NCBI RefSeq assembly: GCF_000507765.1
Contig: NZ_KI669404.1
Coordinates: 1 to 64,000, forward strand
DNA from: Streptococcus parasanguinis CC87K
GTDB lineage: Bacteria; Bacillota; Bacilli; Lactobacillales; Streptococcaceae
Length of the DNA stretch: 64,000 nt
Direction of reading: 5' to 3'
Shown here: piece after piece, positions 3,692-7,855 of the stretch
Position numbering within the stretch: the stretch's first letter is position 1
How the letters are laid out: each line of letters starts with the position of its first letter
Notes under the pieces: model-generated
What the model saw: only the letters and a program-made list of their open reading frames with translations
Database searches by the model: none
Told to the model about the DNA's origin: nothing
Made by a program: the position numbers and the translations under genes

Positions 3692-4666
3692 ATGTCATTT
3701 TCTGATTTAATGCTCTTTGCTTTGTCGTCAAATCAAGAATTGGCTCAACGTGTGTCTCGTGAAATGGGGCTACCGCTTGGAAAGTCAACGGTTCGTCAAT
3801 TTTCTGATGGAGAAATTCAGGTTAATATTGAAGAATCAATTCGTGGGAAAGATGTTTATATTTTGCAATCCACTAGCTCACCGGTTAACGATAATCTAAT
3901 GGAAATTTTGATTATGGTAGATGCGTTGAAACGGGCTAGTGCGCAATCCATTAATGTGGTGATGCCATATTACGGCTATGCTCGTCAAGACCGGAAAGCT
4001 CGAGCTCGTGAACCAATCACTTCTAAGTTGGTAGCCAATATGCTTGAGGTTGCTGGTGTTGATCGCCTCTTGACAATTGATTTGCACGCCGCTCAGATTC
4101 AAGGTTTCTTTGATATTCCTGTTGACCACTTGATGGGTGCGCCTTTGATCGCCGACTATTTTGAACGTCGTGGGATGATTGGGAAAGACTATGTTGTTGT
4201 CAGTCCAGACCATGGTGGTGTGACTCGTGCTCGAAAATTAGCTGAATTTTTGAAGACACCGATTGCGATTATTGATAAACGTCGAAGTGTCGATAAGATG
4301 AATACGAGTGAAGTGATGAATATCATTGGGAGTGTTGAAGGCAAGACTTGTATTTTGATTGATGATATGATTGATACAGCTGGTACAATCTGTCATGCTG
4401 CGGATGCCCTTGCAGAAGCAGGTGCTGTTGAAGTTTATGCGAGCTGTACTCACCCTGTATTATCAGGCCCAGCGATGGACAACATCCAAAAATCAGCCAT
4501 TAAGAAGTTGGTCGTGTTGGATACGATTTATCTACCAGAAGATCGATTGATTGATAAGATTGAGCAAATTTCGATTGCGAAACTTCTTGCAGAGGCCATT
4601 GTTCGCATTCACGAAAATCGTCCGCTTTCCCCTCTGTTTGAAATCGGAAATGCCAAAAAATGTTAA
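3692..4666 (+). CDS. prs: Ribose-phosphate pyrophosphokinase (PRPP synthase)
   Basis: Makes PRPP from ribose 5-phosphate and ATP; PRPP feeds the purine genes later in this window as well as pyrimidine, NAD, His and Trp synthesis. Family landmarks: FSDGEIQV near residue 38, the flexible [11 protein letters not shown] loop, [17 protein letters not shown], and the PRPP-binding loop [12 protein letters not shown]. Length 324. GGAGG lies before the ATG. Own promoter and terminator, so a single-gene unit. Streptococci often carry two prs copies; which one this is cannot be told here. Confidence 0.94.
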
Positions 4667-4673
4667 CAATAAG

Positions 4674-4697
4674 GAGGCTGGAGACCAGCCTCTTTTG
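4674..4697 (+). terminator. Terminator after prs
   Basis: Perfect 8-bp stem GAGGCTGG/CCAGCCTC with loop AGA, followed by TTTT. Confidence 0.85.
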
Positions 4698-4714: not shown

Positions 4715-4855
4715 ATGGAAATTAGAAAATGGTTGGAAAATCTAAAAAAAGAAAAAAAACGGGGAAAATTGGTTCAAGCAGCTCAAAAATTAGAAAGTAA
4801 GGCAGATCCAAGTTTGCCAAAAAAGACTCTGCCCAAAAATCGTGCGGTAAAATAG
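4715..4855 (+). CDS. Small basic protein of 46 residues, unknown
   Basis: Not recognised. ATG at 4715 has an excellent AGGAGG at 4701-4706. The product is 46 residues, rich in Lys and Glu, with an amphipathic N-terminal half (MEIRKWLENLKKEKKRGK) and a Pro/Lys tail ending LPKNRAVK. No signal peptide or membrane segment, so probably cytoplasmic. It lies just after the prs terminator and may depend on read-through. Its tail resembles that of the secreted protein at 5136 (LPKTSAVK), which may be chance. The strong ribosome site is the main support. Confidence 0.55.
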   Translation: MEIRKWLENLKKEKKRGKLVQAAQKLESKADPSLPKKTLPKNRAVK

Positions 4856-5053: not shown

Positions 5054-5082
5054 TTGACATAGGGAGAATATCCTAGTATACT
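5054..5082 (+). promoter_or_regulatory. Strong consensus promoter
   Basis: TTGACA, exactly 17 bases, TATACT. The transcript would start near 5090 and carry a small GTTAC-GAA-GTAAC hairpin (5091-5103) at its 5' end. The best sigma-70-type promoter in the window, suggesting high expression of the secreted protein. Confidence 0.85.
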
Positions 5083-5135
5083 TATCATAGTTACGAAGTA
5101 ACGAATATTTTTAAAAATAAAAAGGAGATAAAACA

Positions 5136-5570
5136 ATGAAAAAAGTTTTATTATCATCAGTAGCAGCACTTGCTGTATTTGCAGCAGCAACACCAGTTTT
5201 CGCTAACAACCAAGGTTATGTTCATACAGGAGATCTTGACAACAACAAACCTGTTGAAGGAAAAGACTTCTTCGTAGATGACGCATCTAAAGAATTTAGC
5301 AATGAACTTACTCCAGCAGCTAAAAACGGTCTTAACAATGTTGATGCTGACTCAACTAAAGATAAAATTAAAGCAGCTGGTGAAACAGTTAAACCTAAAT
5401 TGGATGAAAATGGTAAACCAATTCCAGGTGAATTCGTAGTTGAAGGTGCAGCTAAAGCTGATGCTAAAGCTGATGCTAAAACTGAAGAAAACAAAGATGC
5501 TAAAAAAGACGCTAAAGCTCCAGCAGCTGCAGGTCAAAAAGCTCTTCCAAAAACAAGCGCAGTTAAATAA
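5136..5570 (+). CDS. Small secreted protein with C-terminal LPKTSAVK
   Basis: Family not recognised. 144 residues: signal peptide with cleavage likely after VFA (about residue 23), a globular-looking acidic part (about 24-95), then a low-complexity Ala/Lys/Asp/Glu tail (about 96-135) like the wall-spanning region of surface proteins. It ends LPKTS (137-141) plus AVK. This resembles a sortase LPXTG motif, but there is no hydrophobic segment or charged tail after it, and a terminator follows the stop at once, so no lost anchor is seen downstream. AAGGAG precedes the ATG. The next gene is a sortase. Whether LPKTS is processed is unknown. Confidence 0.85.
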   Translation: MKKVLLSSVAALAVFAAATPVFANNQGYVHTGDLDNNKPVEGKDFFVDDASKEFSNELTPAAKNGLNNVDADSTKDKIKAAGETVKPKLDENGKPIPGEFVVEGAAKADAKADAKTEENKDAKKDAKAPAAAGQKALPKTSAVK

Positions 5571-5591
5571 TTTGATTATTAATTAGCTCAT

Positions 5592-5630
5592 AAAAATATC
5601 ACTGAGTCCTTGGGCTCAGTGATATTTTTT
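5592..5630 (+). terminator. Strong terminator between secreted protein and sortase
   Basis: Nearly perfect stem of about 17 pairs (5592-5609 with 5612-5629), one G-T pair, ending in six T. Confidence 0.92.
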
Positions 5631-5661
5631 AGAGAAAATATCTAATAGGAGAGTTTATTTT

Positions 5662-6519
5662 ATGAAACGTTCTGCAAAAAAAACATCTTCAGGTGGGAAG
5701 ATTGTTGGGCTATTTGTCGCTCTTTTAGCAGTTGTTGTGGTGGTTGCCGGATTTTTATTCTTTAATCCATTTGGTGGAAAGGCCTCTAATACGGCTAAGA
5801 AAACAAATGGTTCTTCAACCAGTGCTTCATCACAGACTGTAAAGTATGAACCTAGCCAAGAAGAAAAAGATTACCTAAAAAATCGGTTTGAACAATTGAC
5901 GGCCGTAAACCCTGAAACGATTGCCTATGTTTATGCTCCTGGTACTCAGTTGGATGAGCCGGTAGTACAAACTGGTGATAATGCCACTTATTTGGATAAG
6001 ACCTTTGATGGTGGCTATCAACCATATTTGGGAACAGTCTTCATGGATACTGATAACAAGAAGAATTTTAGTGACCGTTTGACCTGGCTCTTTGGCCATG
6101 CTCGTGGTAGTAAGGTTGCTGATCACCGGATGTTTAATGATGTGAATTTTTATGATAAGCAAGAATTCTTTGATCAACATCCATATGTTGTCATTGAAAC
6201 ACCTGAGCGTAAGTATTATTATGAAGCTATGTGCTTGGTCATTGTTCCTGAAACAACTGCTTTTTATCGTACTAGCTTTAAAGACGATAAAGACTTTACA
6301 ACTCAGTTGAAGAAGGTTTATGAGGATGGTCAAACCAAGAATCCTAATATTAAGATCAAGGCATCTGATAAGTATTTAGTATTGTCAACTTGTCGTGAAG
6401 AGGATGAAACGATTCGTTCTAACCTCTACCTTCGTCAAATTCCTGATTCAGAAATGAAGGATTTTGTGGCAAAACATGCGGATCAATTGAAATATGTGGC
6501 AACACGTGGTCAAGAATAA
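5662..6519 (+). CDS. Class B-like sortase
   Basis: Membrane-anchored cysteine transpeptidase expected to join secreted proteins to the cell wall or to one another. N-terminal membrane helix about residues 15-36, Ser/Thr/Asn-rich linker to about 60, then the sortase barrel. Catalytic residues are visible: His146 in FGHARGS, Cys244 in LSTCREE and Arg252. The long insertion between His and Cys (98 residues) and the helix-rich middle are class B features; Cys-Arg spacing of 8 is a little shorter than I recall for SrtB. GGAG lies before the ATG. The preceding small secreted protein is the obvious candidate substrate. Class is inferred from motifs only. Confidence 0.85.
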   Translation: MKRSAKKTSSGGKIVGLFVALLAVVVVVAGFLFFNPFGGKASNTAKKTNGSSTSASSQTVKYEPSQEEKDYLKNRFEQLTAVNPETIAYVYAPGTQLDEPVVQTGDNATYLDKTFDGGYQPYLGTVFMDTDNKKNFSDRLTWLFGHARGSKVADHRMFNDVNFYDKQEFFDQHPYVVIETPERKYYYEAMCLVIVPETTAFYRTSFKDDKDFTTQLKKVYEDGQTKNPNIKIKASDKYLVLSTCREEDETIRSNLYLRQIPDSEMKDFVAKHADQLKYVATRGQE

Positions 6520-6526
6520 TGACTTG

Positions 6527-6555
6527 AAAGACTTAGCATTGCTAAGTCTTTTTTG
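6527..6555 (+). terminator. Terminator after the sortase
   Basis: Perfect 11-bp stem (6527-6537 with 6541-6551), loop ATT, T tract. Confidence 0.9.
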
Positions 6556-6673: not shown

Positions 6674-7855
6674 ATGGACTTAACGAAACGTTTTAATAAA
6701 AATCTGAATCGGATTGAAGTATCTTTGATTCGTCAGTTCGATCAATCAATTTCTTCCATTCCTGGTGTCTTGCGTTTGACTTTAGGGGAACCGGATTTTA
6801 CAACTCCTGAACATATAAAAGAAGCAGGAAAGACTGCTATTGATGCGAATTTTAGCCATTACACTGGGATGAGTGGGTTGCTGGCTTTGCGTGAGGCTGC
6901 GAGTCAGTTTGTGGCTGATAAATATGGTATTCACTACCGTCCTGAGGATGAGATATTGGTGACGATTGGTGCGACTGAAGCCTTGTCTGCCACCTTGACA
7001 GCAATCTTGGAGCCTGGTGATGTAGTGCTATTACCTGCTCCGGCTTATCCTGGTTATGAACCGATTATAAATTTGGTGGGAGCAGATGTTGTTGAAATTG
7101 ATACGACAGCAGATCGTTTTGTCTTGACGCCTGAAAAGTTGGAAAAGGCGATTTTAGAGCAGGGTGAAAAATTGAAGGCTGTTATCCTTAACTATCCAGC
7201 TAATCCAACGGGTGTCACTTATTCGCGCAAACAGATGTCAGAATTGGCTGCTGTCTTGAAAAAATATGAGATTTTTGTCATCTGTGATGAAGTGTATTCA
7301 GAGCTGACTTATACAGGGGAAGCACATGTTTCCATGGCAACATTTATCCCTGAGCAGACCATTGTTATTAATGGCTTGTCTAAATCTCATGCCATGACAG
7401 GCTGGCGACTTGGCTTTATCTTTGCTCCGGCTGTATTGACAGCTCAACTCATCAAGAGTCATCAGTATTTGGTAACAGCTGCTGGAACGATGAACCAGTA
7501 TGCTGCGATTGAGGCCTTGACTGCTGGTCGGGATGATGCAGAGCCGATGAAGAAGGAATATGTGAAACGTCGGGATTATATCATCGAAAAGATGTCTGCG
7601 CTTGGATTTGAGATGATTAAGCCAGATGGAGCCTTTTATATTTTTGCTAAAATCCCAGCTGGTTATAATCAAGATTCCTTTGCTTTCTTACAAGATTTTG
7701 CGCGTGAAAAAGCGGTTGCTTTCATTCCTGGTGCTGCTTTTGGACAATATGGTGAAGGTTATGTGCGCTTGTCGTATGCAGCCAGCATGGAGGTTATCAA
7801 GGAAGCTATGAAACGCTTGAAGGAGTATATGGAAGAACATGCTGGAGTCAATTGA
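6674..7855 (+). CDS. araT: PLP-dependent class I aminotransferase (aromatic/aspartate type)
   Basis: Transfers amino groups between amino acids and 2-oxoacids in the cytoplasm. Fold type I features: [10 protein letters not shown] near the N-terminus, [17 protein letters not shown], and the PLP-binding Lys237 in [12 protein letters not shown], plus RLSYA near the end. 393 residues, normal length. The same gene precedes recO in pneumococcus, where it is called aromatic amino acid aminotransferase; substrate choice cannot be read from sequence. GGAGG lies before the ATG. The last 17 bases overlap recO. Confidence 0.9.

Follow-up and report, generated by a model that had tools for sequence, protein, structure and literature searches.

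The substrate and sortase genes and their surroundings

The window (the whole stretch of 64,000 nucleotides that was analysed) comes from a Streptococcus genome of 2.19 Mb in 6 contigs and carries, between prs and an aminotransferase gene, two plus-strand genes: one for a small secreted protein and, next to it, one for a sortase (Table 1). The nearest named relatives of the sortase are from S. parasanguinis strains, with 92% identity.

Table 1. Features of the locus (window positions) and the evidence for each
Feature	Position	Strand	Evidence or remark
prs	3692-4666		upstream neighbour
Terminator-like hairpin between prs and 46-aa ORF	4671..4695	+	z -4.4
Conserved 46-aa ORF, no signal peptide, ending LPKKTLPKNRAVK; tentative third component	4715..4855	+	26/285 genomes, dN/dS ~0.22
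Putative sigma-70-type promoter of substrate gene, TTGACA-17-TATACT	5054..5082	+	11/12, sequence match only
Secreted LPKTxAVK surface protein, 144 aa, short non-AbpA class of abpA-position substrate	5136..5570	+	NF040524, 28.4 bits
Signal peptide, 23 aa, MKKVLLSSVAALAVFAAATPVFA	5136..5204	+	sequence
Short sorting signal LPKTSAVK	5544..5567	+	NF040524; T/S cut site from published homologue (PMC4974636)
Intergenic terminator-like hairpin with T run (substrate/sortase), a likely attenuator	5592..5629	+	MFE -26.5 kcal/mol, z -6.2
Class B sortase SrtB, LPKTxAVK-specific subfamily, 285 aa	5662..6519	+	NF040525, 469.6 bits
Terminator-like hairpin after srtB	6526..6552	+	z -4.65
Aminotransferase gene	6674-7855		downstream neighbour

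The product of the first gene opens with a signal peptide that ends in VFA (followed by NN) and whose first 14 residues are identical in 32 of 90 distinct substrates; an Ala/Lys-rich spacer then leads to LPKTSAVK, directly before the stop codon. Since the highest Kyte-Doolittle mean of any 17-residue stretch past the signal peptide is only 0.24, the protein has no membrane anchor, and with just four residues following LPKT, the hydrophobic segment and charged tail of a canonical LPXTG anchor are absent. The open reading frame, the signal peptide and the hydrophobicity values thus confirm the preliminary description of a secreted protein with a wall-like Ala/Lys spacer and an unanchored LPKTSAVK end. 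Residues 130-144 match NF040524, the model of LPKTxAVK-anchored surface proteins, at 28.4 bits against a cut-off of 20, and no further LPKTxAVK substrate scores above the cut-off in the source genome. The only PDB match of the substrate, to ribosomal protein L22 (E 0.006), begins inside the signal peptide and was set aside as weak and meaningless.

The second gene encodes a protein with an N-terminal membrane segment that matches the model of LPKTxAVK-specific class B sortases, NF040525, far above its cut-off of 200 bits (residues 23-282, model positions 4-261 of 261) and the class B sortase model TIGR03064 at 229 bits (cut-off 153.75). Sortase B homologues in the PDB match it at E ~1e-17. His146, Cys244 and Arg252, named in the preliminary description of a class B-like sortase, stand where it placed them and are each invariant among the 111 distinct aligned relatives that cover them. 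The NPQTN-specific SrtB of Staphylococcus aureus resembles the sortase in its class B fold, as judged by sequence (PDB 1ng5, E 7e-18), and in its matching His and Cys. The usual substrate of the S. aureus enzyme has a conventional, longer tail.

The substrate gene had also been credited with the best promoter in the window. The match upstream of it is indeed strong, but it is joint best, four other sites in the window scoring equally at 11/12 against the consensus.

The hairpin between the two genes, which the preliminary description does not mention, is strong and has 17 pairs. By a criterion that is uncalibrated, with shuffle z-scores mostly between -2.5 and -5, 70 of 74 distinct substrate-srtB spacers contain a hairpin with a T run after it; the stems are unrelated between distant species (TATCACTGAG/CTCAGTGATA, TCACTGAAA/TTTCAGTGA and AAGTTGCC/GGCAACTT). 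A search against Rfam found nothing. Because abpA and srtB are reportedly co-transcribed in S. gordonii (Haase et al. 2017, PMC5399409; also a 2025 review, PMC12650345), the simplest reading is that the hairpin is a partial terminator or attenuator that would keep sortase levels below those of the substrate. Alternatively, termination might be complete and srtB expressed in some other way.

Linkage of the two genes and conservation of the short tail

A survey of 285 Streptococcus genomes, each from a different species, found the sortase subfamily in 109 of them and a match to LPKTxAVK in 91. The two occur together in 89 genomes, the sortase alone in 20, the substrate alone in 2 and neither in 174 (Fisher p 3e-51, a value that ignores shared ancestry); on the question of co-occurrence raised in the preliminary description, the two genes are therefore strongly linked. 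The link is strong, not absolute. In several of the sortase-only genomes a substrate does lie next to the sortase, its variant tail escaping the 15-position model, and in at least ten genomes (about ten), plus second sortase copies in three others, no substrate is adjacent. Neither substrate-only genome offers a convincing case: one match is an ordinary LPXTG protein with LPNTGTVK and a hydrophobic tail, not a real short-tail substrate, and the other is a doubtful open reading frame ending LPKTSAVKASSVAK. A second match in genome G054 was likewise discarded, being internal and not C-terminal. Sortases of the LPKTxAVK type without a recognisable substrate beside them were also seen in other gene neighbourhoods, both in Gemella (loci L053, L058 and L066) and in Streptococcus (L067, L070, L071, L074 and other loci).

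The short tail is kept throughout the genus. LP[K/N]T followed by four residues, the final K being the C-terminus, was found at 129 loci (counting same-genome duplicates from two collections), and two further loci end in LPNT plus five residues (LPNTCVLPE or LPNTSALPE). The latter are secreted proteins encoded upstream of the sortase (L136, 3552-4139; L140, 3464-4033, in the reading orientation of srtB) that lie outside the LPKTxAVK model. Reading the gene that precedes srtB at every fetched locus turned up no sortase-linked relative with an LPXTG-type anchor.

These results bear on the first of two readings that the preliminary description had put forward, namely that the genes are a degenerate pair; on this view truncation cost the substrate its hydrophobic anchor, and the neighbouring sortase is a relic. 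What speaks for it is that ordinary sortase substrates carry LPXTG, a hydrophobic stretch and a charged tail, which the window substrate lacks. Yet some 130 loci, duplicates included, share a tail of four or five residues and none has a hydrophobic anchor, which argues that the tail functions in its short form and has not been truncated; the genes are linked, the sortase is intact, its catalytic residues are invariant, and experiments in S. parasanguinis have shown that the short tail is enough for anchoring (PMC4974636). We therefore consider degeneration wrong, its probability being close to negligible. Relatives with a full anchor and a missing link in gene occurrence had been named as what would tell against the second reading, in which the sortase acts on a substrate with a short tail; both were looked for, and this reading survived. 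It had in fact already been published for the S. parasanguinis locus (PMC4974636).

The pair extends to streptococci labelled S. suis: loci L056 and L059, from records titled S. suis W153 and HN129, carry the sortase subfamily with an adjacent substrate ending LPKTSVAK. A 2025 review states that there is no evidence for an AbpA/SrtB system in S. suis (PMC12650345), and the presence of the pair in these strains is contrary to this.

Probable wall anchoring by SrtB and the identity of the substrate

The two genes make up the abpA-srtB locus as it occurs in the Streptococcus parasanguinis group; the locus is not degenerate, and it is of a known kind. Liang et al. (2016) studied abpA-srtB in S. 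parasanguinis and S. gordonii, where AbpA ends in LPKTSAVK and SrtB cuts between the T and the S (PMC4974636). In that work deletion of the AVK tail alone abolished amylase binding, as a T-to-S change in the sorting signal abolished function; the tail sufficed to anchor GFP to the wall, and loss of srtB moved AbpA from the wall into the medium (PMC4974636). The SrtB enzymes of S. aureus and S. pneumoniae are no substitute, that of S. aureus neither complementing the loss nor processing AbpA (PMC4974636). Haase et al. (2017) found the prs/aminotransferase neighbourhood in part of the species, as well as signs of horizontal transfer (PMC5399409). The window shares with the systems of S. parasanguinis FW213 and S. 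gordonii the gene order, the signal peptide, the LPKTSAVK tail, the curated class B sortase subfamily and the species group, and both its proteins exceed the curated cut-offs of NF040524 and NF040525, with no difference that matters.

With both halves covered by NCBIfam models and by published experiments on a homologue (PMC4974636), the system is a known one. We hold it to be very probably a working abpA-srtB-type locus in which the short LPKTSAVK tail is the complete sorting signal for the neighbouring class B sortase. The present analysis establishes how the locus is built, to which families its proteins belong, that they co-occur, and that tail, catalytic residues and hairpin are conserved. 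The pair thus represents a rediscovery: sortase substrates as a rule require a membrane anchor, and this exception was already known. What is added is of moderate value: a short substrate class, the extension to streptococci labelled S. suis, a conserved candidate attenuator and a mini-gene with a sorting-signal mimic.

By analogy with the homologue, for which others have demonstrated it (PMC4974636), SrtB of the window would cleave LPKTSAVK between T and S and anchor the product. The strong promoter would supply the small secreted protein, the membrane-bound sortase would recognise its C-terminus and cut, and the new Thr end would be joined to the wall and possibly also to other copies of the substrate, as in the published 'ladder'. 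Because no hydrophobic stop would hold the substrate in the membrane, part of it may escape to the medium, and the intergenic hairpin would probably let only some transcripts pass, giving much substrate and little sortase.

The missing retention segment could also suggest that the substrate is mainly released and that SrtB merely polymerises or trims it without anchoring, a reading in line with the presence of AbpA in the supernatant as well as the wall and with the AbpA ladders formed by SrtB in vitro (PMC4974636). In the homologue, however, the protein disappears from the wall when srtB is lost, and GFP bearing the tail is wall-bound (PMC4974636), which makes a mainly released substrate very unlikely.

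Whether the substrate is AbpA proper, through which the strain would bind salivary amylase, is a separate matter. Its gene position, signal peptide, sorting signal and sortase are all as in AbpA, and amylase-binding strains exist in the group. Published AbpA is, however, an amylase-binding protein of ~207 aa with a coiled coil and a small globular domain, and the published AbpA groups span 195-228 aa (PMC5399409), whereas the window substrate is 144 aa long and unrelated in its mature region. The AbpA model NF040523 gives it 38.2 bits against a cut-off of 150, all from residues 2-28, i.e. from the signal peptide. The mature region falls instead into a cluster of ten distinct short proteins of 123-144 aa from several species with the common motif GLNNVDAxST...PGEFVV, and neither BLAST nor profile-profile comparison finds similarity between this region and the long AbpA-type substrates. 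Given the unrelated mature region, the score from the signal peptide alone and the length below the published range, the protein is probably best filed as an LPKTxAVK-anchored protein and not as AbpA; amylase binding should not be assumed, and we regard it as unlikely. The short class, probably distinct from AbpA, is set apart by this, the sorting machinery being the same, and its members would by analogy be processed like the long homologue. In the substrates of L003-L161, which occupy one and the same locus, the mature regions form several unrelated sequence clusters, and they do so even inside the S. parasanguinis clade. The signal peptide and the sorting signal remain constant, as if display domains had been swapped.

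A 46-codon open reading frame upstream of the pair

Just past the terminator-like hairpin of prs begins an open reading frame of 46 codons, with the sequence MEIRKWLENLKKEKKRGKLVQAAQKLESKADPSLPKKTLPKNRAVK, which constitutes the main, if modest, extra of the locus and is absent from the preliminary description. The encoded protein lacks both a signal peptide and a membrane segment and has no above-cut-off match in Pfam or NCBIfam, and no description of it was found in the libraries and papers searched. Its C-terminus in the window, LPKNRAVK, belongs to a family tail, LPK[N/S]x[A/V][V/I]K, that nearly copies the neighbouring sorting signal with the critical Thr replaced, this position being always Asn or Ser; one relative reaches 12.3 bits with the LPKTxAVK model, below the cut-off.

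Protein and profile searches place the open reading frame in the same 26 of the 285 genomes, and it is whole at 46 codons in all of them save G206, where it is frameshifted. These genomes (relatives L162-L187) are exactly the 26 with the closest srtB, at 79% identity or above; they form one clade (parasanguinis/australis), and the association with srtB is thus not independent evidence. Invariant positions include D31, P32, P35-K37, L39-P40 and K46. The median dN/dS (Table 1) indicates purifying selection.

The resemblance of the two tails is unlikely to be chance: the pattern LPxxx[AV][VIM]K at the C-terminus matches 64 of the 8551 distinct open-frame C-termini from the fetched loci, and all 64 are substrates or this 46-aa protein. 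Recent duplication of the 3' end of the substrate gene is also an unlikely source, as most of the matching codons differ at synonymous sites. That the protein is a third component of the locus, acting with the AbpA-type substrate or with SrtB, is a tentative and rather improbable proposal; provided that some of it reaches the cell surface, it could for example serve as an uncleavable decoy or a regulator, but its lack of a signal peptide leaves no evident route to an extracellular sortase. As an alternative to such a role, the two tails may share common descent, with export of the 46-aa protein having been lost later.
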